In this document: piece by piece, positions 328-23,073 of the stretch
Layout: each line of letters begins with the position of its first letter
How positions within the stretch are numbered: position 1 is the stretch's first letter
Source: a virus
IMG/VR virus record: IMGVR_UViG_3300044608_000471
Coordinates: 1 to 37,793 of that record
DNA length: 37,793 bases
Direction: 5' to 3' (one strand)
The notes under the pieces: generated by a model
What the model was told of the DNA's origin: nothing
Databases searched by the model: none
Seen by the model: only the letters and a program-made list of their open reading frames with translations
Made by a program: the position numbers and the translations under genes

Positions 328-1470
328 CTAGTGCTCACCCGTAACGTGAACCGTCAGTACGACGACAGCTTTGCTGTTGAAGGTGCCAAGATTGGTTCGA
401 CCCTGCGTATCCGTCTGCCTGACCGCGCTCTGGTCACCGACGGCGCCGCCCTGCAAGTGCAGGACGACAACGAGCAGTTCACCACTCTGACTGTGTCTTC
501 GCAGAAGCACATCGGCGTGAACTTCACGTCTGCCGAACTGACCATGCAGTTGGACGACTTCGCAGAGCGTGTTTTGAAGCCTCGTATCAGCCAGTTGGCC
601 TCCAGCATCGATGCTGACGTGGCAAACAGCTTCAAGTACATCGGCAACACCGTTGGCACCCCTGGCACCACGCCCGCCACCTCGCTGGTTCTGCTGCAAG
701 CCCAGCAGAAGCTCAACGAGAACGCTGCTGTGATGTCGCCTCGCTACGCCACCGTCAACCCGGCTGCTAACGCTGGTTTGGTTGAAGGCATGAAAGGTCT
801 GTTCAACCCCACCGACACCATCAGCAAGCAGTTCAAGAACGGCATGATGGGCACTGGCGTGCTGGGCTTTGACGAGATCAACATGTCTCAGTCGATCAAG
901 CAGTTCACCACCGGCTCGCGTGACGCTACTGGCGGCTCGACCTCTGCCGCTGTGACCGCTGAAGGCGCTACCTCCATCGTCATCACCGGCGCTGGTGCGA
1001 ACGACACCATCAAGCTCGGCGACGTGTTCACCGTGGCTGACTGCTACGCTGTGAACCCGCAGACCCGTGAGTCCACTGGTTCGCTGTTCCAGTTCGTTGC
1101 TGCTGCTGACGTGACCCTGAACGGCTCTGGCGCCGGCACCGTTACCGTGTCCCCAATGTACTCGGCCAACCACGCGCTGGCTACCGTTGACGTTCTGCCG
1201 CAAACCGGCAAGGCCGTCGTGTTCGTGGGTGCTGCTTCCAGCCAGTACGCTCAGAACTTGGTGTACCACAAGGATGCGATCACCTTCGCCACCGCCGACC
1301 TGCTCCTGCCGCAAGGTGTGGACATGGCCGCTCGCGCCGTTCACAATGGCATCAGCCTGCGCGTTGTCCGTCAGTACGACATCAACAACGACCGTATGCC
1401 CTGCCGTATTGACGTGCTGTACGGCTACAGCGTGATTCGTCCTCAGATGGGCGTTCGCCTCTGGGGCTGA
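262..1470 (+). CDS. Major capsid protein (P22 gp5-like coat)
   Basis: This 402-residue protein forms the icosahedral shell. The N-terminal half (N-arm, then a segment with LRIRLPDRAL, then a segment on coat-type binding to VNFTSAELT) resembles the P22 gp5 coat family with the HK97 fold. Roughly residues 215-330 are a Ser/Thr/Gly/Val-rich beta insertion, in the place where P22 carries its I-domain. The ATG follows AAAGGA at about 10 bases. It lies directly after the scaffolding gene and is followed by a hairpin, so it can be expressed at high level. The C-terminus is well formed (RIDVLYGYSVIRPQMGVRLWG-like ending). I am confident of the role and less so of the closest relative. Confidence 0.9.
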   Translation: MANSILTIDMITRKALEILENNLVLTRNVNRQYDDSFAVEGAKIGSTLRIRLPDRALVTDGAALQVQDDNEQFTTLTVSSQKHIGVNFTSAELTMQLDDFAERVLKPRISQLASSIDADVANSFKYIGNTVGTPGTTPATSLVLLQAQQKLNENAAVMSPRYATVNPAANAGLVEGMKGLFNPTDTISKQFKNGMMGTGVLGFDEINMSQSIKQFTTGSRDATGGSTSAAVTAEGATSIVITGAGANDTIKLGDVFTVADCYAVNPQTRESTGSLFQFVAAADVTLNGSGAGTVTVSPMYSANHALATVDVLPQTGKAVVFVGAASSQYAQNLVYHKDAITFATADLLLPQGVDMAARAVHNGISLRVVRQYDINNDRMPCRIDVLYGYSVIRPQMGVRLWG

Positions 1471-1476
1471 TTGAAT

Positions 1477-1492
1477 GGGGGCTTCGGCCCCC
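1477..1492 (+). terminator. UUCG-loop hairpin after the capsid gene
   Basis: GGGGGC, loop TTCG, GCCCCC form a perfect 6-bp stem with a very stable tetraloop, 6 bases after the capsid stop codon. It is followed by TTCTAC rather than a clear T run. It is therefore more likely a partial attenuator or a mRNA 3'-end stabiliser than a full terminator. Confidence 0.6.
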
Positions 1493-1523
1493 TTCTACAC
1501 ATTTATTTTGAAAGGATTTCATC

Positions 1524-1931
1524 ATGGCTCTCCCTAATGGCGCAGGTGGTTATCAAGTCGGCGACGGTAACTTGACCGAGGCACAACTCACCGTACAAAC
1601 TATTCCCGCAACCTTGACCGGCGACACTACGTTGACCGCTGCTCAAGTGGCTGTTGGTCTGGTTGTGTGCAACAAAGGCAGCGATGCCACGCTGACCGTG
1701 ACGCTGCCCGCCGCAGCGTTGCTCGACGCGGCTGTCCCCAGCGCAAAGGTTAACTCCGCTTTTGAGCTGACCATTTGCAACAACAACAACACCGGATCAT
1801 CGTCTACCGTTCCCGTTACCACGGGCACTGGTATCACGATCTTCGGGTCTGTTACCGTTCCACGCTTCGGTGCCCACACGTACCGTTTCGTGCGTACTGG
1901 CGAAGCAGCTTACTCGGCGTTCTTGAAGTAA
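1524..1931 (+). CDS. Small beta-rich virion protein, possible capsid decoration protein
   Basis: This 135-residue protein is rich in Thr, Val, Ala and Asn, with no charged clusters, no signal peptide and no membrane segment. The composition fits an all-beta virion component. The ATG follows GAAAGGA at a good distance. It sits between two strong hairpins directly after the major capsid gene, a usual place for head decoration or head-fibre genes. The Asn run CNNNNTG lies near residue 88. I do not recognise a named family; virion role is inferred from position and composition. Confidence 0.65.
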   Translation: MALPNGAGGYQVGDGNLTEAQLTVQTIPATLTGDTTLTAAQVAVGLVVCNKGSDATLTVTLPAAALLDAAVPSAKVNSAFELTICNNNNTGSSSTVPVTTGTGITIFGSVTVPRFGAHTYRFVRTGEAAYSAFLK

Positions 1932-1936
1932 ATAAT

Positions 1937-1958
1937 GGGGGCTCCGGCCCCCGTTTTT
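1937..1958 (+). terminator. Rho-independent terminator
   Basis: GGGGGC, loop TCCG, GCCCCC is followed by GTTTTT, 5 bases after the stop of the preceding gene. It is nearly identical in stem to the hairpin at 1477-1492 but has a T run, so it should terminate part of the capsid transcript. Confidence 0.75.
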
Positions 1959-1970
1959 AAAGGAAACACT

Positions 1971-2384
1971 ATGTCCTCCAATACCAAACCAATTGGTGTG
2001 GCTTTTGAAGACCAGAACATCATTGGGTCTGACTCAGTGCTGTCTGGTGGTGAGCTGGGCTACACCGCAGAAGCGAGTGGTACGGTCACGCAATTGACTG
2101 ACAAATCGACGGGCGTGACCTTGAACAAGTCCGCTGGTCAGATTACGATGAACAACGCCGCTCTGGCTAACGCCACGAACGTCTCGTTCACGCTGACCAA
2201 CAGCACTATTTCGGCCAAAGACGTTGTGGTGTTGAGCGTGTCTTCCGGTGCCACTGCTGGCGCCTACAACTGCTGGATTTCTGGCAAGGCTACTGGAAGC
2301 TGCACGATCACCCTACGCAACCTTTCGGGCGGTTCGCTGTCCGAGGCCGTGGTGATCAACTTTGCGATAATTCACGTACGGTAA
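1971..2384 (+). CDS. Small beta-rich virion protein
   Basis: This 137-residue protein has the pattern LTDKSTGVTLNKSAGQITM, then Ala/Ser/Thr/Val-rich strands, ending in SEAVVINFAIIHV. I recognise this as a recurrent phage structural protein near capsid genes in environmental phages, of unknown exact function. A longer frame opens at an ATG (1935), but that ATG lies within the terminator stem. The ATG at 1971, preceded by AAAGGA, is the better start. Flanking terminators on both sides mean its level relative to coat is set by read-through. Confidence 0.7.
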   Translation: MSSNTKPIGVAFEDQNIIGSDSVLSGGELGYTAEASGTVTQLTDKSTGVTLNKSAGQITMNNAALANATNVSFTLTNSTISAKDVVVLSVSSGATAGAYNCWISGKATGSCTITLRNLSGGSLSEAVVINFAIIHVR

Positions 2385-2390
2385 AACCGA

Positions 2391-2418
2391 ACGGGGCCGA
2401 CAATCTCGGCTCCGTTTC
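2391..2418 (+). terminator. Hairpin terminator
   Basis: A 10-bp stem (ACGGGGCCGA with TCGGCTCCGT, one G-T pair) with loop CAATC is followed by TTTC, 6 bases after the preceding stop. It is the third hairpin in about 940 bases of the capsid region. Confidence 0.65.
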
Positions 2419-2423
2419 TACAC

Positions 2424-2603
2424 ATGCCCGTAATCTATCTCACACACCCAGTCCACGGCGCTAAGGTTGCGACGATAGACTTGGAAGCCGATTTGGATGT
2501 CCAAAACGGCTGGTCAAGATACAATCCAGAAATTGTGGAAACCGCGCCGGAGCCAGAACTGGTTGTGCGGCGCGGGCGGCGCAAGAAGGACGAAGAGGAA
2601 TAG
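2424..2603 (+). CDS. Small conserved phage protein, 59 aa
   Basis: ATG to TAG encodes 59 residues beginning MPVIYLTHPVHGAKVA, with a central NGWSRYNP and a highly charged C-terminus (RRGRRKKDEEE). Short proteins with this LxHPxHGxKVA and NGWxRY layout are common between head and neck genes in phages. The function is unknown. The next gene begins one base after its stop, so the two are probably translated together. There is no clear ribosome site, as the start lies just behind the terminator. Confidence 0.65.
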   Translation: MPVIYLTHPVHGAKVATIDLEADLDVQNGWSRYNPEIVETAPEPELVVRRGRRKKDEEE

Positions 2604-2604
2604 C

Positions 2605-3336
2605 ATGACGACCTACACCGCAGGCGAACAGATTAACCGGGCGCTTCGGTTGTTGGGCGTTTTGGCTGAAGGAGAAACTCCGTCTGCGTCGGTGTCGCAA
2701 GATGCTTTGATGGCGCTAAATCAGATGGTTGATTCGTGGTCAACCGAGCGACTGGCTGTTTTTGCCACCATCGACCAGATCGTCAACTGGCCGACCGGCT
2801 CTATCAACGAGACTCTTGGCCCCAGCGGTTCGCTGGTACGCCTGAACGGCACTGCTGTACGCCCGATTCTGGTGGACGACGCCACCTACTTCAAAGACCC
2901 CGGCACTGGCGTGTCGTACGGCATCAAGCTGATCAATCAGCAACAGTACGACGGCATCGCTGTCAAGACTGTGACCTCGACTTTTCCGCAGGTGATGTTT
3001 GTAAACAACACCTACCCGAACTTTGACATCTTTATCTACCCGCGCCCGACGCGGCTGCTGGAGTGGCACTTCATCAGCGTCCAAGAGTTGACGCAGCCGG
3101 CTAATCTGTCCACCCAGATTCTGTTCCCGCCAGGCTACCTGCGGGCGTTCACCTACAACTTGGCCTGCGAGATCGCGCCAGAGTTTGGCGTCGAACCAAG
3201 CCCCCAGGTGCAGCGCATTGCGATGTACAGCAAGCGCAACTTGAAGCGCATCAACAACCCGGACGATGTGATGTCGATGCCGTACTCGCTAATCGCTACG
3301 CGGCAGCGGTACAACATCTACGCCGGAAATTTTTGA
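2605..3336 (+). CDS. Head-tail adaptor, P22 gp4-like packaged DNA stabilisation protein
   Basis: This 243-residue protein starts MTTYTAGEQINRALRLLGV. It has the segments typical of the P22 gp4 (tail accessory factor) family: an N-terminal helical part with ALMALNQMVDSW, a beta middle, and a C-terminal helical ending (LPPGYLRAFTYNLA-like segment, then RNLKRIN). In P22, gp4 binds below the portal and closes the channel after packaging. The start at 2605 is chosen because AAGAGGAA precedes it and the upstream extension overlaps the 59-residue gene. The gp10-like gene follows, as in P22. Confidence 0.8.
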   Translation: MTTYTAGEQINRALRLLGVLAEGETPSASVSQDALMALNQMVDSWSTERLAVFATIDQIVNWPTGSINETLGPSGSLVRLNGTAVRPILVDDATYFKDPGTGVSYGIKLINQQQYDGIAVKTVTSTFPQVMFVNNTYPNFDIFIYPRPTRLLEWHFISVQELTQPANLSTQILFPPGYLRAFTYNLACEIAPEFGVEPSPQVQRIAMYSKRNLKRINNPDDVMSMPYSLIATRQRYNIYAGNF

Positions 3337-3338
3337 TC

Positions 3339-3500
3339 ATGGAGTTCACTTTTCGCTCTCGTCCCTTCGAAGTGTGCGTGCGTCTTGGCCGCGTATACGA
3401 CTTGCTGGAGGAGCGGTTCTTGGGTTCCGCTATCAACGTGCGCGTCGGCAAAACTGTTTGGACTACCGGTAAAGGCTTGCAAAGGATAGGTCAAGCATGA
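3339..3500 (+). CDS. Small basic protein, 53 aa
   Basis: The frame starts MEFTFRSRPFEVCVRLGRVYDLLEE in part and ends GLQRIGQA. It begins two bases after the gp4-like stop and its TGA overlaps the ATG of the gp10-like gene (ATGA). The packing and the coupling support a real gene. Function unknown; a small neck or assembly protein is possible. Confidence 0.55.
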   Translation: MEFTFRSRPFEVCVRLGRVYDLLEERFLGSAINVRVGKTVWTTGKGLQRIGQA

Positions 3501-4936
3501 AAACGCCGATCCTTGGCTCGACCTATGTGGCTCGCAGCGTCAACGCTGCGGATGCCCGCATGGTCAACCTGTTTCCCGAGATCGTGCCCGAGGCGGGCAA
3601 GGAGCCGGCGTTTCTAAACCGCGCCCCCGGCCTGCAACTGCTCAACTCGATTGGCACTGGCCCGATCCGTGGTTTGTGGGCCTTCTCGCCGCAGGACGGC
3701 ACCGGCTTTGTGGTGTCGGGCACCCAGTTGTACAAGATCAACAACAGCTACACGCCGACGCTGTTGGGCACCGTGGCAGGCGCCGGCCCGGTCAGCATGG
3801 CCGATAACGGCACCCAGCTCTTCATCGCGGCCAACGGCCCGAGCTACATCTACAACAACACGACCAACGCCTTTGGACAGATCACCGACCCGGACTTTCC
3901 TGGCGCAGTGACCGTAAGTTACTTAGACGGCTACTTTGTCTTCAACGAGCCGAACAGCCAAAGGCTGTGGATTACGGCGCTGCTTGACGGCACGTCGATT
4001 GACCCGCTGGAGTTTGCCAGCGCCGAAGGCTCGCCCGACGGATTGGTGGCTGTTATATCCAACTTCCGCGAGGTGTGGGCCTTTGGCACCAACTCAATTG
4101 AGGTTTGGTCTGACACGGGCGCAACGGACTTCCCGCTCCAGCGCATCCCTGGTGCGTTCAACGAGTTGGGCTGCGCCGCGCCCTACTCGATTGCCAAGAT
4201 GGACAACGGCCTGTTCTGGCTTGGGCGCGACCGACGCGGTCAGGGCATCGTCTACCGGGCCAACGGCTACGCCGGCCAGCGCATCAGCACCCACGCCGTC
4301 GAGTGGCAGATTCAGCAGTACAGCGACCTGTCGGACGCGGTTGCGTACACCTACCAGCAAGACGGTCACAGCTTCTATGTGCTAATCTTCCCCACGGCCA
4401 ACACGACCTGGGTGTACGACGTTGCCACCCAAGCCTGGCATGAGCGGGCTGGCTGGAACAACGGCGAGTTCACCCGACACCGCAGCAACTGCCAGATGGC
4501 GTTCAACAACAAGGTAGTCGTCGGCGACTACGAGAACGGCAACATCTACGCCTTTGATCTGGAAGACTACTCGGACAACGGCAGCATCCAGAAGTGGCTG
4601 CGGTCGTGGCGGGCGCTGCCTACTGGCGCCAACAACCTCAAGCGCACCGCGCAGCACAGCTTGCAACTCGACATCGAGGCCGGCACTGGCTTGAACTTGG
4701 GCCAAGGCAGCGACCCCGAGGTCATGCTGCGCTGGTCGGACGATGGTGGTCACACATGGTCCAACGAGCACTGGGCGCAGATCGGCAAGATCGGCGAGTA
4801 CTATCGCCGGGTGTTCTGGCGGCGCATGGGCATGACCCTGAAGCTGCGCGACCGCGTTTATGAGCTATCGGGCACCGACCCCGTGAAGATCAGCATCATG
4901 GGCGCAGAGTTGATTCTGAGTCCAACGAATGCTTAG
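3497..4936 (+). CDS. P22 gp10-like packaged DNA stabilisation / tail hub protein
   Basis: This 479-residue protein starts MKTPILGSTYVARSVNAADARMVNLFPE, cited here in part. That N-terminus, with VNLFPE and a following RAPGL, is characteristic of the P22 gp10 family. The rest is a series of beta blades with Asp-Asn-Gly turns and Trp residues, as expected for a beta-propeller-like hub. In P22, gp10 extends the neck below gp4 and helps hold DNA in the head. The ATG overlaps the stop of the small upstream gene. Length is close to that of P22 gp10 (472). Confidence 0.85.
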   Translation: MKTPILGSTYVARSVNAADARMVNLFPEIVPEAGKEPAFLNRAPGLQLLNSIGTGPIRGLWAFSPQDGTGFVVSGTQLYKINNSYTPTLLGTVAGAGPVSMADNGTQLFIAANGPSYIYNNTTNAFGQITDPDFPGAVTVSYLDGYFVFNEPNSQRLWITALLDGTSIDPLEFASAEGSPDGLVAVISNFREVWAFGTNSIEVWSDTGATDFPLQRIPGAFNELGCAAPYSIAKMDNGLFWLGRDRRGQGIVYRANGYAGQRISTHAVEWQIQQYSDLSDAVAYTYQQDGHSFYVLIFPTANTTWVYDVATQAWHERAGWNNGEFTRHRSNCQMAFNNKVVVGDYENGNIYAFDLEDYSDNGSIQKWLRSWRALPTGANNLKRTAQHSLQLDIEAGTGLNLGQGSDPEVMLRWSDDGGHTWSNEHWAQIGKIGEYYRRVFWRRMGMTLKLRDRVYELSGTDPVKISIMGAELILSPTNA

Positions 4937-5639
4937 CCCAACCCCGCCAATCATTACGCCCCCACGGGTGCCGCTGGTTGACCCGCGCACGGGGCTGATC
5001 AGCCGGGCTTGGTACTTGTTTTTCCTGTCGCTCAACAACGCGGCCACGGCGATCATTGACGACTCAGGCATTACGTTTAGCGCCGAGTCAACAATTGCGT
5101 CTGTTGACGCTGCGCTTCAGGCAGTCAACCAAGAGTTGCAGACGCTGCCGCCCGCACTTGACTTGAGCGATGAGTTGGTCAAGTTGATTGACGCAGCGAC
5201 GTTGGCAGACTGCTGCTCGGCGTTGGTGTCGCAGGTTGCCGAGTTGCAAAAGCAGATTGACGCGCTGCAAGTTCAGCCCATCGTTGATGCCGGCGCGATC
5301 AATGCAGCGATTGCTGCGCTGTCCAGCGCCCCGGCAACGTACACCGCCGACTTCTCGGTGGCCGCTACGAATGTCTGGATTATCAACAACAAGTCCGGGT
5401 CATCCTGCACCGTGACGCTGCCAACGGCCAGCATCAGCGCCGGGCGAGTGCTGTACTTTCAGAACTACCAGGCCCAGACGCTGGTGTCAGCGTCGAGCAA
5501 CGTAGTGCCTTTGGTCGGCGGCTCGGCCACCACGGCGATCTTGGAGGCCGTAGCTGGGGCAAACGCCACCTTGGTTTCCGATGGAACAAGTTGGATAATG
5601 ACGCAATACTCGTCTAACAACTCTTTGCAATTGGAGTAA
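4929..5639 (+). CDS. Tail protein with coiled coil, possible tail needle or fibre connector
   Basis: This 236-residue protein begins MLSPTPPIITPPRVPLVDPR. The PPxVPLVDPRTGLISRAWY segment is common at the N-terminus of short phage tail proteins. Residues of about 50-120 form heptad-like helices (VDAALQAVNQELQ, then VAELQKQIDALQ), consistent with a trimeric coiled coil. The C-terminal half is beta-rich (TVTLPTASISAGRVLYFQN). The position after gp10 is that of the P22 needle gp26, but sequence similarity to gp26 is not evident. The ATG overlaps the gp10-like stop by 8 bases. Confidence 0.6.
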   Translation: MLSPTPPIITPPRVPLVDPRTGLISRAWYLFFLSLNNAATAIIDDSGITFSAESTIASVDAALQAVNQELQTLPPALDLSDELVKLIDAATLADCCSALVSQVAELQKQIDALQVQPIVDAGAINAAIAALSSAPATYTADFSVAATNVWIINNKSGSSCTVTLPTASISAGRVLYFQNYQAQTLVSASSNVVPLVGGSATTAILEAVAGANATLVSDGTSWIMTQYSSNNSLQLE

Positions 5640-17240: not shown

Positions 17241-17347
17241 GCGGATGCTGTGCCAGAGTCAGGTCTATTGGTGACATGACTATAGGTCGTCAAGGGCTGT
17301 CATGAGCAATGCTTGCCGATCCGTGAGTTCGAATCTCACCAGACGCA
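17241..17347 (+). ncRNA. tRNA-like RNA element upstream of DNA polymerase (possible degenerate class II tRNA)
   Basis: The gap 17223-17368 holds a convincing T-arm (GTGAG, TTCGAAT, CTCAC; 17323-17339). Before it is a small arm GCAA-TGC-TTGC (17306-17316) like a class II variable arm, and a 5-bp stem ATGAC/GTCAT (17276-17280 with 17299-17303) in the anticodon-arm place. Its loop is 18 bases, not 7. GCGGATG (17241) and CAGACGC (17340) can pair at 5 of 7 as an acceptor stem. There is no normal anticodon loop and no CCA. It may be a decayed tRNA, or a structured leader controlling polymerase. Confidence 0.35.
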
Positions 17348-17368
17348 GCGAGTACCCCCGCCTTTTTT

Positions 17369-20167
17369 ATGATCCTCTGGATCGACTTCGAGACGCGCAG
17401 CCGGGTAGACCTCGGCAGCAAAGGCGTCTACAACTACGCGCAGGACATGAGCACCGAAGTGCTGTGCATGTCCTACGCCTTCGACGACGGTGAGGTCGTC
17501 ACATGGCTTCCAGGCCAGCCGTTACCCGACTTCACCGGGTGCACCATCTACGCCCACAACGCGGCGTTTGAGCGCTTAATTTTTTGGTATGTGCTTCAGC
17601 AGAATTTCGCCTTAGAGCAGTTCTACTGCACCGCCACGCAGGCTAGGGCCAATTGCGCCCCTGGCAGCCTTGAGGACGTGGGGCGCTTTGCCAGTGCGTC
17701 CATGAAGAAGGACCACCGAGGGAGCCAGTTGATCCGGCTGCTGTCCATCCCCCAAGCTGATGGCACCTTCCGCGAGGACGCGGCGCTGATGGCTGAGATG
17801 ATCGCCTATTGCGAGCAGGACGTGAGGGCCATGCGCGAGATCAGCAAGGCCATGCGGCCCCTAAGCGCTGAGGAGTTGGCTGACTATCACGTCAACGAGC
17901 GCATCAACGACCGTGGCGTGCTGGTGGACGTGCCGCTTGCCAAGGCAGCGATGCGCTACGCTCACGACGAGCTGGTTGAGATCGAGGAGCGCGTGGCTGA
18001 GCTGACCGACGGCGAGATCACCAGCGTACGCTCGCCCAAGATGCGCGAGTGGGTGCTTGAGCGCGTGGGCGACGAGGCCAAGAAGCTGATGCTGGTCAAG
18101 GACAAGTATTCAATTGACAAGACTGTGCGGGCCAACTTGCTCGCGATGGAGAACCCCGATGAGATACCGCCCGCTGTCGCCGAGGTCATACAGTGCGCTG
18201 ATGACCTCTGGGCGTCGTCAGTTGCGAAGTTCAGCCGCATGGCAGACCTGGCAGACGACGAGGATTGCCGAGTCCGTGGCGCTTTTGTCTTCGCTGGGGG
18301 TGCCGCCACTGGTCGTGCATCGAGCTATGGACTCCAAGTGCATAACTTCACTCGCAAGTGCGCTAAGGAACCTGACGCGGTACGAACATCTATGGTCAGA
18401 GGACATAACATTGTCCCTGCCTACGGAAAACGAGTCACAGATGTTCTACGGGGAATGCTCCGGCCCGCACTGATACCGGCTAAGGGAAAGCACTTCGTCG
18501 TCGCCGACTGGTCGGCCATCGAGGGCCGCGTCAACCCGTGGCTGTCAGGCAGCGCCTTTGGCGAGGCCAAGCTGGACGTGTTCAGGCGCAAGCTGGATCC
18601 CTACAAGGTCAACGCTGCTGCGACGTACAGCGTGGCCTATGAGGAGGTCACTGGCGAGCAGCGTCAGGTCGGCAAGGTGCAGGAGTTGGCTTGCTTTGCC
18701 GCTGAAACCAAGGTCTTGACTAGTAACGGAGTCAAGGCTATAGTGGACGTTCAATTAACTGATCTTTTGTGGGACGGCCAATCATGGGTGACGCATCAGG
18801 GGGTGATATGCAAGGGAGTTCGACCAACTATCAACGTGTGCGGAATCGAAGTAACGCCGGATCATTTGATCAAAACAAAGGCAACTTGGACGCAGGCGCA
18901 GGAAATCGTTTCAAACAAACAGTTGCTGACCCAAGCGTTGGAAGTCGGTTCGGCTTCCTTACCGTATTGGGCGTTGAGTTTCACGATCAAGGCGCCTGCC
19001 GGATGCGGCTCGTTCGTGTTCAGTGTGATTGCGGCGCTGCGCCGCACTTGGTCTACATCCATAACCTTCTCAAAGGCAAATCGACGCGGTGCAACGTATG
19101 CGCCAAAAAATCTGCTGGCTTCTGGCGAAAAGATTTTTACAAGTATGCCGATGCCTGCCCAGATGACGAGCACCGCCGGCGCCTGCTCAACCGGCTATCT
19201 GCTTGCAAGAACCGATGCCACAACCCCAAGGATCGAGGCTATCCAAACTATGGTGGCAGGGGGATACATCTACATGAGCCCTGGCGCACTGACAAGGCGG
19301 CGTTCCTCCGCTACGTTGTCACGCTTGATGGATGGGATCAGCCGCATCTGGAACTCGACCGTATTGACGTCAATAAGGGCTATGAGCCGGGCAATCTACG
19401 GTTCGTTACGCGGCAAGTCAATCAGGCTAACCAACGAAAAGTCCGAGACATGCAACGGTACATCACCGAACTTGAGGCCCGTGTACGACATCTTGAACAG
19501 CGGCTCGCGCAATCGGTTTACAGTGCTGAGTGACGCCGGTCCGTTGATCGCGCATAACTGCGGGTTTGCTGGAGGTGTCGGGGCATTTGCCGCAATGGGT
19601 AGAGTGTATGGAGTTCACTTTACTGAAGCTCAAGCAAGAAAAACTGTCGACGCCTGGCGCCGCGCTAATCCGTGGGCCGTGCCGTTTTGGCAAGACCTGG
19701 AGGAAGCGTACACCCGTGCGATGCGTAACAAGGGCCATGAGTTCAGCGCAGGCCGTGTGGCGTACCTCTTTGACGGTCAGCACCTGTGGTACGCGCTGCC
19801 CTCTGGGCGCGTGCTATGCTACCCCTACGCTCGGCTGGAAAGCGATGGGGTGACTTACGCCAAAGCATCGTGGAAGCCAGCCGCAGACGCTACAGAGTGG
19901 CCTCGCGCCCGCCTCTGGAAGGGCCTGGCCTGCGAGAACATTACTCAAGCCGCAGCCAATGACATCCTACGCCACGCCTTGCGCCAGCTCGAAATGGAGG
20001 GCGAGCAAATTGTTTTGCACGTTCACGATGAGGCTGTGGCAGAGACTGCCGACCCCATAGCAACTACAGAGCGCATGCGCCGCGTAATGACAACGCCGCC
20101 TGCGTGGGCGCAAGACCTGCCGCTCAACATCGAAATAAGCACTATGTCTCGGTACGGCAAAGGCTGA
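17369..20167 (+). CDS. Family A DNA polymerase with proofreading exonuclease, interrupted by an intein
   Basis: The precursor is 932 residues; removal of the intein (442-730) leaves 643. The 3'-5' exonuclease motifs are D6/E8 in WIDFETRS, HNAAFE (63-68) and YCEQD (147-151). The polymerase motifs are A, VADWSAIEGR with Asp380; B, RQVGKVQELA joined after splicing to CGFAGG; and C, HDE (886-888). All catalytic residues are present, so the spliced enzyme should replicate the phage genome. The ATG at 17369 has no clear ribosome site; a T run and the tRNA-like element precede it. Splicing is required for activity because the intein splits the O-helix. Confidence 0.93.
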   Translation: MILWIDFETRSRVDLGSKGVYNYAQDMSTEVLCMSYAFDDGEVVTWLPGQPLPDFTGCTIYAHNAAFERLIFWYVLQQNFALEQFYCTATQARANCAPGSLEDVGRFASASMKKDHRGSQLIRLLSIPQADGTFREDAALMAEMIAYCEQDVRAMREISKAMRPLSAEELADYHVNERINDRGVLVDVPLAKAAMRYAHDELVEIEERVAELTDGEITSVRSPKMREWVLERVGDEAKKLMLVKDKYSIDKTVRANLLAMENPDEIPPAVAEVIQCADDLWASSVAKFSRMADLADDEDCRVRGAFVFAGGAATGRASSYGLQVHNFTRKCAKEPDAVRTSMVRGHNIVPAYGKRVTDVLRGMLRPALIPAKGKHFVVADWSAIEGRVNPWLSGSAFGEAKLDVFRRKLDPYKVNAAATYSVAYEEVTGEQRQVGKVQELACFAAETKVLTSNGVKAIVDVQLTDLLWDGQSWVTHQGVICKGVRPTINVCGIEVTPDHLIKTKATWTQAQEIVSNKQLLTQALEVGSASLPYWALSFTIKAPAGCGSFVFSVIAALRRTWSTSITFSKANRRGATYAPKNLLASGEKIFTSMPMPAQMTSTAGACSTGYLLARTDATTPRIEAIQTMVAGGYIYMSPGALTRRRSSATLSRLMDGISRIWNSTVLTSIRAMSRAIYGSLRGKSIRLTNEKSETCNGTSPNLRPVYDILNSGSRNRFTVLSDAGPLIAHNCGFAGGVGAFAAMGRVYGVHFTEAQARKTVDAWRRANPWAVPFWQDLEEAYTRAMRNKGHEFSAGRVAYLFDGQHLWYALPSGRVLCYPYARLESDGVTYAKASWKPAADATEWPRARLWKGLACENITQAAANDILRHALRQLEMEGEQIVLHVHDEAVAETADPIATTERMRRVMTTPPAWAQDLPLNIEISTMSRYGKG
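18692..19558 (+). other. Intein in DNA polymerase motif B
   Basis: This 289-residue in-frame insertion has all splicing signals. It has Cys1 (codon 18692) in CFAAETKVLTSNGVKAIVDV (block A), a block B GIEVTPDHLI with the TxxH pattern, block F VYDILNSGSRNRFTV, and block G GPLIAHN followed by Cys+1 (19559). The middle, about 180 residues, is Ser/Arg/Thr/Ala-rich and shows no endonuclease motif in this frame. An HNH gene fills that DNA in another frame (18808-19533). The insertion is between Ala and Cys of the polymerase O-helix, a typical conserved target site. Confidence 0.9.
18808..19533 (+). CDS. HNH-type homing endonuclease nested out of frame inside the intein
   Basis: A 241-residue protein entirely within the intein coding DNA, in the -1 frame relative to polymerase. 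From residue 44: VGSRFGFLTVLG, a zinc ribbon (C73, C75, C95, C98), RCHNP (136-140), YGGRG (148-152), LDRID (183-187) and GYEPGNLRF. This is the HNH-like endonuclease family common as mobile genes in phages. A C-terminal coiled coil (ITELEARVRHLEQRL) overlaps intein block F. ATG 18808 is chosen because AGGGGGTGAT directly precedes it; ATG 18784 and GTG 18769 are possible earlier starts. A TGA at 18760 closes the frame upstream, so it must be translated on its own. It probably cuts intein-free polymerase genes to spread the intein. Confidence 0.85.
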   Translation: MQGSSTNYQRVRNRSNAGSFDQNKGNLDAGAGNRFKQTVADPSVGSRFGFLTVLGVEFHDQGACRMRLVRVQCDCGAAPHLVYIHNLLKGKSTRCNVCAKKSAGFWRKDFYKYADACPDDEHRRRLLNRLSACKNRCHNPKDRGYPNYGGRGIHLHEPWRTDKAAFLRYVVTLDGWDQPHLELDRIDVNKGYEPGNLRFVTRQVNQANQRKVRDMQRYITELEARVRHLEQRLAQSVYSAE

Positions 20168-20168
20168 T

Positions 20169-20276
20169 ATGATCTCGACAAACACGGCTAGTCTGGAAGT
20201 CATGAGCCAGACGAAAAGCGAACCTCCCGCCTGCCGTCGTTTCTTTTCTCGGAGGAATTGCGAGGGGTTTACATGA
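20169..20276 (+). CDS. Possible small ORF, 35 aa, between polymerase and HNH-AP2 gene
   Basis: ATG two bases after the polymerase stop, ending in a TGA that overlaps the ATG of the next gene (ATGA). It begins MISTNTASLEVMSQTK and contains CRRFFSRRNC. No ribosome site is evident. It may merely be the leader of the HNH-AP2 gene; confidence is low. Confidence 0.25.
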   Translation: MISTNTASLEVMSQTKSEPPACRRFFSRRNCEGFT

Positions 20277-20767
20277 ACCAAGAACAGCTTAAAGAGCTGC
20301 TGCATTACTGTCCCGAAACGGGCGTGTTTACGCGGCGGAAAAATTTTGGGCGCCATAAAGCAGGCGTAATTGTCGGGACAAAGCCCGGCAGAACTTGTAA
20401 GTATGTAACGATATATGCGGGCGGAAAGCGATATGTGGCGCAGCGGTTAGCCTGGCTATACGTGCACGGTCAATGGCCGGACGATGATCTTGACCACATA
20501 AACCGCATAAAAACAGACAACAGAATTGCAAACTTAAGGCAAGTAACGCGATCTCAAAACATGCAAAACGTGTTGCTGCACCAACACAACACGAGCGGGC
20601 ACAAAGGCGTAAGTTGGGCTGAACAGCTAAAAAAATGGCGCGTGTATTTGTACGTGCAATACAAACAAATCCACATAGGTGTTTTTGCAAATTTTGACGA
20701 TGCAGTTGCAGCGTACCACGTAGCGGCGACGCAGTACCACACTCACAACCCGGTCACACAAGCATGA
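20273..20767 (+). CDS. Free-standing HNH endonuclease with AP2 domain
   Basis: A 164-residue protein. Residues 56-100 form the HNH module: VAQRLAWLYVHG, LDHINR (73-78), N83, RIANLR and TRSQNMQN. Residues 107-155 form the AP2 DNA-binding domain: TSGHKGVSW, KWRVYL, HIGVFANFDDAVAAYHVAA. Such genes are mobile homing endonucleases. ATG 20273 follows GAGGGG; a TTG five codons upstream has GGAGGA before it and is an alternative. Its TGA overlaps the ATG of the primase gene, so it has settled into the operon. Its G+C appears lower than that of its neighbours, suggesting transfer. Confidence 0.88.
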   Translation: MNQEQLKELLHYCPETGVFTRRKNFGRHKAGVIVGTKPGRTCKYVTIYAGGKRYVAQRLAWLYVHGQWPDDDLDHINRIKTDNRIANLRQVTRSQNMQNVLLHQHNTSGHKGVSWAEQLKKWRVYLYVQYKQIHIGVFANFDDAVAAYHVAATQYHTHNPVTQA

Positions 20768-23073
20768 CAACAAATTTCATCGACTACTTAGTGTCCCTCG
20801 CGCCAGAGGGCGAGACTTTTTTAGTTGTTAGGCAAAAGCCTGTTGGCAAGGAGTTGCAGTACCACGCCGACGGTGGCGTCAAAGCTACCTGGCCGGCGTT
20901 CCTGCCCAACAAGAAGATGGCCGAGGGCCAGTCGTGGTATGGCAATACCGCCTCGTTCATCCTCGACCGTTTCACCGACGGCTATGCGCGCGCCAGTGCC
21001 GCCAACTGCGAGTATGTCCTGTGCATGGTGCTGGACGACGTGGGCGATCCCGTCAAGGCCCCCAAGACGCCGCCGCTGTCCCCGACCTGGGTGATGGAGA
21101 CGAGCGAGGGCAGCTTCCAGTGGGGCTACGCATTCACTGAAGAGCAGCCGACCAAAGCCGAGTTTAGCGCGGCGATCACGGCCATCGCCGCTGCCGGTTA
21201 CAGCGACGCTGGCGCGATCAACCCAGTGCGTAACTTTCGCTTGCCGGGGTCGGTCAACATCAAGCCCGGCCGCGACGGCTTCGCCTCGCGCCTTGTCGAG
21301 TTCCACCCCGAGCGCCAATTCACCCTCCCGCAAATCTGCGAAGCGCTCGGCGTCACCCCGCATGAGGAGGTGACCGCCTTTCGCCCGATCCGCGTGTCCG
21401 ACGACGGCGCCGATGACGTGCTGGCCTGGCTGTCAGGCCAAGGGCTGGTGCTGCGTAAGCCCAACGCCGAGGGTTGGGCCGGCATCATCTGCCCCAACGA
21501 GGCGCAGCATACCGACGGCTCGCCTGAGGGCCGCTACAACCCCGCCATGCGCGCGTATTGCTGCTACCACGGCCACTGCACTGAGCTGGACTCGGGTGCG
21601 TTTTTGTCGTGGGTGGCCGAGAACGGTGGCCCGTCCCACGCCCCTGGCCTGCGCGATGAGCTGCTGGCGTCGATGATGACCGACGCCTTGAACAAGCTGC
21701 ACCCCACCGAGGCGTTCCCAGACGAGGCAAAGCGCGTGATCGCCGAGGTCGAGCGCAAAGAGCTGGGCCGCACCACACGCGCCGAGTGGTACGCGAGGTT
21801 CTGTTACGTTCAAGAGGGCGACCATTACTTCGACCTGCAAGACCGCCGCGAGATCAGCCGTAGCACGTTTAACGCCCTGTTTCGCCATATCGAATGCCGG
21901 TCCCTGTTCGGCAAGAAGCCTAAGATAGAGGCGTCGTATTGCTTCGATGAGAACCGCCAAGAGATGGGCGCCCGCGCCCTGGTCGGTATCACCTACGCCG
22001 CCGGCGAGGGCGTGTTGGTGGCCCGTGACGGTGACGTGTACGGTAACCGCTGGCGCGATGCCCGCCCGGCCATTGAGGCCGACGCTGGCGCCGACGTCGC
22101 GCCCTGGCTGGATCACTGCGCGGCGCTGGTGCCCGAGGCGTCCGAGCGCGAGCATATCTGGGACGTCATGGCCTATAAGGTCCAGCACCCGGAGATCAAG
22201 ATCAACCACGCGGTCCTGCATGGTGGCGATCAGGGCTGCGGCAAAGACACCCTTTGGGCGCCGTTCATCTGGGCCGTCTGCGGCCCCCAGCTCAAGAACC
22301 GGGGTCTGCTCGACAACGACACTCTTGGGTCACAGTGGGGCTACGCGCTGGAGTCGGAGATTCTCATCCTGAACGAACTTAAAGAGCCAGAGGCCAAGGA
22401 GCGCCGCGCTCTGGCTAACAAGCTTAAGCCTATCATCGCCGCGCCGCCCGATATGCTCACGGTTAACCGCAAGGGGCTGCATCCGTACGATTCGCTTAAT
22501 CGCATGTTCGTGCTGGCGTTCAGCAATGACCCGGTGCCGATCACAATCGACAGTCAGGACCGCCGTTGGTTCTGCGTCTGGTCGTCGGCGCCTCGCATGG
22601 CGCCAGACGCCGCCGCCCGGCTCTGGGCATGGTACAAGGCCGGCGGCTATGAGGCGATCGCCGCTTGGCTGCGCGCCCGTGACGTGTCGGCGTTCAATCC
22701 CTCCGCTGCGCCAGGCTGGACGGAATTTAAAGCTAACTTGGTTGAGCATGGCATGAGCATTGCCGAGAGTTACTTGGTCGAAATGATGCGCGCGCGTCGG
22801 GGTGAGTTTGCCCGTGGGGTGGTCGGTAGCCCTTTTCATAGCCTCTGCGATCGCGTGGCGGCCTCTGCGCCGTCTGGCGTCAAAGTACCGCAGGCCGCGC
22901 TTCTGCACGCGCTTAAGGAGGCCGGCTGGATCGACTGCGGTCGGCTCAAGTCTCGGGCTAACGATGGCCGCAAGCACGTTTTCTGCGCGCCTGACATGGT
23001 CACGCATAGTAAGTCAGAACTGCGCGATTTGGTCGAGGAACCCGCATCGCCGCTCATGGTGCGGGTCAAATAA
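20764..23073 (+). CDS. Primase-helicase (AEP-like N-terminus, D5/DUF5906-type ATPase)
   Basis: A 769-residue replication protein. The N-terminal half resembles RepB-like archaeo-eukaryotic primases: CMVLDDVGDP (87-96) with the metal-binding Asp pair and VRNFRLPGSVNIKPG (155-169). A Cys/His region with CPNEAQH and CCYHGHC (near 244 and 268) may be a zinc site. The C-terminal half is a superfamily 3-like helicase with Walker A GDQGCGKDT (from 488), a LNELKEPE acidic motif and a FSNDPVP sensor segment. It would prime and unwind DNA for the polymerase encoded upstream. Its start is coupled to the HNH-AP2 stop. Confidence 0.82.
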   Translation: MTTNFIDYLVSLAPEGETFLVVRQKPVGKELQYHADGGVKATWPAFLPNKKMAEGQSWYGNTASFILDRFTDGYARASAANCEYVLCMVLDDVGDPVKAPKTPPLSPTWVMETSEGSFQWGYAFTEEQPTKAEFSAAITAIAAAGYSDAGAINPVRNFRLPGSVNIKPGRDGFASRLVEFHPERQFTLPQICEALGVTPHEEVTAFRPIRVSDDGADDVLAWLSGQGLVLRKPNAEGWAGIICPNEAQHTDGSPEGRYNPAMRAYCCYHGHCTELDSGAFLSWVAENGGPSHAPGLRDELLASMMTDALNKLHPTEAFPDEAKRVIAEVERKELGRTTRAEWYARFCYVQEGDHYFDLQDRREISRSTFNALFRHIECRSLFGKKPKIEASYCFDENRQEMGARALVGITYAAGEGVLVARDGDVYGNRWRDARPAIEADAGADVAPWLDHCAALVPEASEREHIWDVMAYKVQHPEIKINHAVLHGGDQGCGKDTLWAPFIWAVCGPQLKNRGLLDNDTLGSQWGYALESEILILNELKEPEAKERRALANKLKPIIAAPPDMLTVNRKGLHPYDSLNRMFVLAFSNDPVPITIDSQDRRWFCVWSSAPRMAPDAAARLWAWYKAGGYEAIAAWLRARDVSAFNPSAAPGWTEFKANLVEHGMSIAESYLVEMMRARRGEFARGVVGSPFHSLCDRVAASAPSGVKVPQAALLHALKEAGWIDCGRLKSRANDGRKHVFCAPDMVTHSKSELRDLVEEPASPLMVRVK

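Follow-up and report, generated by a model that had tools for sequence, protein, structure and literature searches.

An HNH endonuclease gene nested out of frame within a probable mini-intein of a phage DNA polymerase

The polymerase locus and its features

The virus record IMGVR_UViG_3300044608_000471, analysed over its whole length of 37,793 bases (the window), contains a DNA polymerase gene interrupted by an intein, and the DNA of this intein carries an HNH endonuclease gene in a second reading frame. The polymerase is encoded at 17369-20167 on the plus strand as a single open reading frame (ORF) of 932 amino acids, which as a whole was assigned to the family A polymerases through matches to PF00476 (E 1.1e-14) and phrog_17 (E 1.1e-80). 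The features of the locus are as follows.

17369-18691 (+): N-extein of the family A DNA polymerase, from the PF00476 and phrog_17 matches of the whole ORF
18692-19558 (+): intein of 289 amino acids in the polymerase frame, from Cys1 to His-Asn and followed by Cys+1; from alignments, our own Hint hidden Markov models and the Hint fold predicted by AlphaFold2
18692-18730 (+): splicing block A (CFAAETKVLTSNG); C1, T6, T10 and G13 invariant in 11 sequences
18771-18777 (+): GGGACGG, Shine-Dalgarno-like, from the intein Trp-Asp-Gly codons; anti-Shine-Dalgarno energy -6.4 kcal/mol
18784-19533 (+): nested HNH endonuclease gene, 249 amino acids and stop, in the -1 frame relative to the polymerase, its ATG overlapping intein Trp32; phrog_374 'HNH endonuclease', E 3.2e-32
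18842-18871 (+): splicing block B (GIEVTPDHLI), read a second time as the HNH N-terminal region; two-frame constraint
18986-19459 (+): intein residues 99-256 (158 residues), predicted disordered, with a predicted local distance difference test (pLDDT) score of about 30-40 for most; HNH core in the -1 frame
19024-19101 (+): HNH zinc-ribbon cysteines (CxC ... CxxC); C81, C83, C103 and C106 invariant in 48 sequences
19249-19263 (+): HNH YGGRG motif, by sequence
19354-19368 (+): HNH LDRID motif; D192 and R193 invariant
19481-19525 (+): splicing block F (VYDILNSGSRNRFTV), read a second time as the HNH C-terminus; ratio of nonsynonymous to synonymous substitution (dN/dS) in the intein frame 0.07
19535-19558 (+): splicing block G (AGPLIAHN); G283, H288 and N289 invariant in 48 sequences
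19559-20167 (+): C-extein of the polymerase with its stop; junction exact against the empty allele L005

Read in the polymerase frame, the insert contains the elements that define an intein: blocks A, B, F and G, Cys1, TxxH, the terminal His-Asn and Cys+1. The nearest intein-free allele was found in locus L005 (MW202483), the exteins of which are 61-62% identical to those of the window. At the junction L005 reads GAACTTGCT followed directly by TGCGG, while the window reads GAGTTGGCT, then the intein, then TGCGG, giving an exact in-frame insertion at a site which we take to be polymerase motif B. The -1 frame of the intein DNA is open for 256 codons, and the third reading frame contains 18 stops.

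The sequence-only reading of this DNA had placed a complete HNH gene out of frame inside an intein, with a zinc ribbon, YGGRG and LDRID in the -1 frame, a polymerase frame that kept its four splicing blocks around a featureless middle, and double coding over blocks B and F. All of this was borne out by the -1 ORF and its PHROGs match, by the presence of all three motifs, by the predicted disorder of residues 99-256 and by the overlap of the HNH N- and C-terminal regions with blocks B and F. The profile searches it had proposed for each frame gave a mixed outcome: the HNH match in PHROGs was obtained in the -1 frame, and Pfam returned no HNH family. In the polymerase frame the intein matched phrog_93 ('endonuclease', E 8.5e-16) and two unnamed PHROGs families, with no match to any PHROGs family named HNH, and the only Pfam match was the Hint-type Vint, at E 0.12 and below the cut-off.

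Predicted structures

The intein was modelled with AlphaFold from 48 sequences. Residues 1-98 and 257-289 formed a confident Hint fold with a pLDDT of about 95-97 over most of their length, and residues 99-256 scored below 50 and were predicted to be disordered. Foldseek returned 39 matches to the PDB for the intein model, nearly all of them inteins or Hint relatives. Superposition of the Hint part on the Mtu RecA and Ssp DnaB inteins (3ifj, 1mi8) using VIA-align gave a Z score of 15.1 over 113 residues with a root-mean-square deviation of 2.2-2.6. The core of the nested HNH protein was predicted at about 90 and resembles viral predicted structures, several of which are annotated as HNH or homing endonucleases.

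Recurrence of the nested layout across phages

Relatives were collected from both sides of the element. The HNH-anchored scan covered the best 80 of 358 relatives and the genome-contig scan 11 of 11. When the intein sequence alone was used as the anchor, a single sequence as query gave 10 loci only, and two narrower alignments, which gave more, were followed to the best 80 of 286 and the best 80 of 192 relatives. The nested layout was counted only where both intein ends lay in one ORF, a filter that dropped one locus, SS3e, so that the absence of stops described below partly follows from this choice of loci.

The layout was present in 113 of the 120 loci examined, a set that includes copies of the window; the HNH gene was at -1 in 105 and at +1 in 8, and 72 loci were non-redundant at 90% HNH identity. 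The remaining seven comprised the empty site in L005, the broken polymerase of SS3e (L008), three loci with an HNH and no detected intein blocks (L010, L012, L119) and two with Hint blocks and no HNH (L022, L025). In SS3e the HNH and a portion of the intein are read in a single open frame, and the polymerase is spread over three different frames, so that this locus is taken to be a broken copy. An assembly or sequencing error was considered as the origin of the layout and is unlikely given its presence in 113 of 120 loci.

The first intein-anchored set (best 80 of 286) contained, among complete inteins and with redundancy, 74 with the HNH at -1, 2 at +1 and 2 without HNH, and the second (best 80 of 192) contained 3, 70 and 12, respectively; none in either set was in frame. 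Starts with an unmatched block A, SS3e among them, were skipped in these sets, and for 12 inteins the ORF did not contain a C-block as well (7 with the HNH at +1, 3 at -1 and 2 with no HNH). For the pooled survey 2 of 282 complete rows were dropped (longer than 400 amino acids, two inteins joined), and the remaining 280 complete inteins were reduced to 164 at 80% identity. The HNH was at -1 in 95, at +1 in 57, absent from 12 and in frame in none, the survey seeing only HNHs that resemble those profiled. The intein-anchored remainder, from which inteins already represented by HNH-anchored ones were excluded, contributed 30 at -1, 49 at +1 and 10 with none. The finding that none of the 152 non-redundant HNH-bearing inteins has its endonuclease in frame is the opposite of what the sequence-only reading had named as grounds for abandoning its proposal, namely homologues that all have an in-frame HNH. 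The layout is thus a recurrent phage class that extends well beyond the window.

When restricted to long HNH genes the survey gave 93 at -1 and 56 at +1 (149 genes), with 3 fragments. The inteins without HNH measured 123-171 amino acids and are therefore too short to contain another endonuclease. Some of these mini-inteins (L160, L173, L245; by eye) retain remnants of the HNH ends in a shifted frame, so that at least these lost the HNH by deletion. This bears on the invasion of a mini-intein by an independent HNH gene, which the sequence-only reading had put forward as a possibility.

Fifteen of the 21 phage records fetched have the layout, including Vibrio phage 97.13, Pseudomonas MR14, Salmonella jerseyviruses, Dhillonvirus phages, APSE-1, APSE-2, Caulobacter RLK, Streptococcus Javan101 and Shewanella SFCi1. 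Searches using tblastn gave 166 phage records with at least 80% of the HNH at one place and 184 with at least 80% of the first 88 residues of the intein, the frames having been checked for part of these only. Insertions were found in polymerase motif B, at a second polymerase site (GKL/CEN), and in SNF2 and ResIII helicases; the site classes were assigned by rough patterns, and a Pfam check of the host proteins covered 8 sequences, one of which (L208) was a piece of intein. Two records of the survey have two such inteins at different sites of one polymerase: IMGVR 3300002732_000012 (L090/L200), with one HNH at -1 and one at +1, the 5' part of the latter not being open, and 3300025104_000002 (L173/L222), in which the second is a mini-intein without HNH. 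In L247 the polymerase ORF (945-4979), the N-terminal part of which matches uracil-DNA glycosylase, contains an intein with a nested HNH.

Of the 14 annotated phage records that have an intact layout, 12 do not list the nested gene; the other two are SO-1 and APSE-1. Where the ORF is recorded it bears other names: gp39, part of an intron, in SO-1, P46 with no product in APSE-1, and orf42, an HNH endonuclease, in SS3e. The GenBank note on Sodalis phage SO-1 (gp38/gp39) implies another explanation, in which the HNH belongs to a group I or other RNA intron and the polymerase frame is open by accident. Genes for HNH enzymes are often found in introns. Against this, Rfam gave no intron family over 17300-20800 at E values up to 1, the intein frame was open in all 149 intact members, and the insert encodes a Hint domain with a Z score of 15 and a conserved Cys1, block B and HN/C junction; an intron is therefore extremely unlikely.

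Selection on both reading frames

The sequence-only reading had held that the polymerase frame stays open beyond chance and had called for a per-frame dN/dS analysis. Synonymous shuffling of the window HNH codons left the intein frame open in none of 2000 trials (mean 5.4 stops), which upholds the former, and the latter, once run, revealed selection in both frames, the polymerase frame included. Across the 149 non-redundant HNH genes, synonymous shuffling predicted 385.5 intein-frame stops in the -1 class and 438 in the +1 class (about 824) and none was found.

Regional dN/dS was measured on 17 pairs (each locus used once) out of 91 pairs of equal length, with no correction for multiple hits and with some pairs sharing lineages. 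In block A, upstream of the HNH start, the intein gave 0.21 and the HNH frame, serving as a control, 0.80, indicating evolution for the intein only. Over bases 93-250, where the HNH N-terminal region overlaps, values of 0.40 for the HNH and 0.32 for the intein indicate constraint on both frames. The middle region gave 0.15 for the HNH and 0.64 for the intein frame, with 0.068, 0.291 and 0.104 substitutions per site at HNH codon positions 2, 3 and 1, respectively. In block F, the most constrained part, the intein dominated, with an HNH value of 0.61. Among HNH-silent changes, those that create an intein stop occurred at 0.059 per site, compared with 0.44 for those that replace an amino acid of the intein. 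Since the HNH constraint rules the middle and stop-making changes are rare, the middle of the intein protein is mostly free filler that is obliged to stay open.

These values also bear on the idea that the HNH frame is a non-functional relic and that only the intein frame matters. An HNH fragment was found in 3 of 164 inteins and no HNH was detected in 12 of 164, as a relic would predict. The HNH is nevertheless the constrained frame in the middle region, where its third base varies four times more than its second, and about 935 HNH-frame stops would be expected in the 149 genes from the intein protein alone where none was seen, the genes having been chosen as open. A relic is accordingly regarded as very unlikely.

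Probable translation of the nested gene

The sequence-only reading had credited the HNH gene with its own start and a good ribosome site. The start was confirmed as a conserved feature, located at ATG 18784; the ribosome site, GGGACGG, is present and is non-specific. Relatives conserve ATG 18784 and neither the first GTG at 18769 nor the ATG at 18808, the latter being missing from L015, which is 93% identical. In the -1 class the start codon consists of the last base before intein Trp32 and the TG of Trp32, and in 66 -1 members this position reads ATG in 49, GTG in 13, TTG in 3 and CTG in 1. The deciding base was A in 64 of 93 members of the -1 class, compared with 31.2 expected from extein codon use. 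The GGGAYGG sequence belongs to the conserved Trp-Asp-Gly codons and has a similar strength in the +1 class, and so does not count as evidence on its own. Starts of the +1 class recur at intein bases +145, +187, +202 and +220, and in several +1 members Hint codons spell out a strong Shine-Dalgarno sequence before an ATG, reaching -12.7 kcal/mol.

Programmed -1 ribosomal frameshifting from the polymerase frame, producing a polymerase-IntN-HNH fusion, would agree with the position of the HNH frame in the window class, exactly -1 of the polymerase. An HNH-frame stop lies within the intein upstream of the start in 54 of the 66 -1 members, however, and in 19 of 66 this stop is no more than two codons away from it. 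Hardly any space is left for a slip site (slip sites were not searched for), and internal initiation is therefore favoured. The +1 class lies in the other frame, several of its members having the strong Shine-Dalgarno sequences described above, and conservation of a start codon would be needless if ribosomes slipped. Frameshifting is thus considered improbable.

Phylogeny and probable mobility

HNH identity exceeded extein identity by an average of 17 points over 2,152 pairs, an excess that could partly reflect stronger constraint on the HNH. Comparison of the window with L042 gave identities of 31% for the extein, 56% for Hint and 67% for the HNH. Extein identity to the window was 61/62% for the intein-free L005, 64/67% for the intein-bearing L017 and 28/27% for the intein-bearing L001. 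This mismatch between extein and intein divergence fits horizontal spread, to which stronger HNH constraint may contribute. Trees were built with FastTree only. The HNH tree placed the -1 and +1 classes on two sides of one branch with a support of 96. In the Hint tree, most forks of which are weak and poorly resolved, absence of the HNH needs 11 changes, at least 3 of them forced by well-supported branches.

Comparison with known systems

The element resembles full-length inteins such as PI-SceI and TliVMA in its Hint domain, in the position of the endonuclease between blocks B and F and in the loss of the endonuclease to give mini-inteins. It differs in that the endonuclease lies in another frame (none of 164 non-redundant inteins has it in frame) and is therefore absent from the intein protein that would be excised. 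Dassa and colleagues reportedly described, in 2009, fractured genes that have split inteins together with free-standing endonucleases. They are said to share with the present element an endonuclease translated apart from the intein halves, and differ from it in having the host gene in two ORFs, whereas here it is one ORF of 932 amino acids. Two loci of the survey, L066 (1278-5369) and L077 (1190-5624), have the polymerase in two ORFs via a split intein, the form reportedly called a fractured gene. In each of these loci an ORF judged by eye to be GIY-YIG-like overlaps the two halves, and the second polymerase ORF also contains an intein with a nested HNH. In L010 (Escherichia phage phi G17, 1184-4606) the polymerase is likewise in two ORFs with an HNH-like ORF between them, and no intein block was detected.

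The intein-containing DNA polymerase of the jerseyviruses f18SE, Ent2 and S528 is the same element, with the HNH at -1; in the Ent2 record the annotation of the intein goes no further than 'encoding splicing domains', and the nested gene is not listed. The sequence-only reading knew of no well-described system of this form. This held for the intein, since the open-licence PMC literature searched yielded no description of an intein whose endonuclease lies out of frame, and did not hold for out-of-frame HNH genes in general, as one is already in print. PMC11855218 describes the ShiLan insertion, in which a mycobacteriophage methylase gene contains an HNH in another frame; its authors detect no splicing domains there and see nothing to support an intein or intron. 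The two elements share an HNH out of frame in an insert that leaves the host frame open, an in-frame product of mostly poor predicted confidence and a proposed internal start; they differ in that here Hint blocks and a Hint fold flank the HNH, the host genes encode polymerases and helicases, and the HNH start lies within Hint motifs. PMC12613952 contains another methylase case. In PMC3185647 inteins in phage Felix O1 were ruled out by the lack of a shared frame, an assumption that the present element breaks.

The ShiLan precedent raises the possibility that the present insert does not splice either, the polymerase tolerating it and only the HNH being of consequence, all the more as splicing here is predicted from sequence. 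Block F is nevertheless the most constrained part of the intein frame, and the splicing blocks persist in the mini-inteins without HNH. The insertion also lies in a site that we name motif B. A non-splicing insert is quite implausible on these grounds.

Evidence weighing against the assignment

Several observations weigh against a mini-intein with a nested homing endonuclease. No Pfam HNH family was found among 48 HNH members of the -1 class or 6 of the +1 class, and comparison of the HNH with the PDB gave no sequence match of note and no fold match at E 0.001. The family was called from PHROGs and from viral predicted structures, some of them annotated as HNH, and for the +1 class from our own profiles. 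HNH enzymes usually have His where LDRID has Arg, so that cleavage is not certain. For the intein model, Foldseek alone gave no PDB match at E 0.001, the best being an intein at 2.7e-3. With regard to translation, the deciding base A is also somewhat raised in the +1 class, where it is not a start (20 of 44, compared with 13.2 expected), and the GGGAYGG site is about as strong in +1 inteins that do not use it (median -6.9 vs -6.6). Among the 66 -1 members, the conserved start is followed by a stop in two and is CTG in one, and in the contig of L090/L200 no start precedes the opening of the +1 HNH frame. Low stop rates are partly a matter of construction, intact members having been selected.

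Neighbouring genes in the window

A free-standing second HNH gene lies downstream of the polymerase at 20258-20767 (+), with a match to HNH_3 (E 3.2e-16) and a weak one to AP2, and shares four bases with the beginning of a primase-like gene (20764-23073). Alignment of this ORF with the nested HNH using hhalign gave an E value of 8.6e-4 and a probability of 23. Between the polymerase and this gene, at 20181-20255 (+), Rfam gave an int-alpA RNA at E 1.4e-4, with a score of 34.4 compared with a gathering score of 35.8.

Proposed mechanism and implications

The two open frames, their conservation, the selection on each, the Hint fold in the model, the empty site and the mismatch between extein and intein divergence are together best explained by a mini-intein whose nested homing endonuclease is translated as a protein of its own. 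We consider this very probable, and infer from the sequences an internal start, cutting and splicing. A mini-intein would have been inserted in motif B of a phage family A polymerase, with the HNH as a nested -1 gene in place of an in-frame domain. The full-length polymerase-intein would be translated and the intein would then excise itself, its 158 middle residues acting as disordered filler held free of stops. On the same mRNA, ribosomes would initiate internally at ATG 18784, amid the intein Trp-Asp-Gly-x-x-Trp codons, to give free HNH. The free HNH would cut intein-free polymerase alleles during mixed infections, and repair would copy the intein and the HNH gene together into the cut allele. 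The two-product element suggested by the sequence-only reading fits the conserved layout, the conserved start and the dual-frame selection.

For phages more broadly, we lean towards the view that dual-coded inteins are a main form of intein, in two old lineages (-1 and +1) with the HNH ribosome site and start within Hint codons. A single stretch of DNA would thereby encode splicing and mobility as two proteins, each with its own dosage, and through deletion such elements could become mini-inteins, and perhaps also split 'fractured' genes. Inteins with an endonuclease are usually pictured as a single protein chain with both activities; here an overlapping second gene encodes the endonuclease, and therefore enzyme dose and splicing would be uncoupled and gene lists tend to miss it. 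The class provides a large natural data set for the evolution of overlapping genes, suggests that inteins tolerate about 150 residues of unstructured filler, and offers a testable link among nested, split and mini-inteins.

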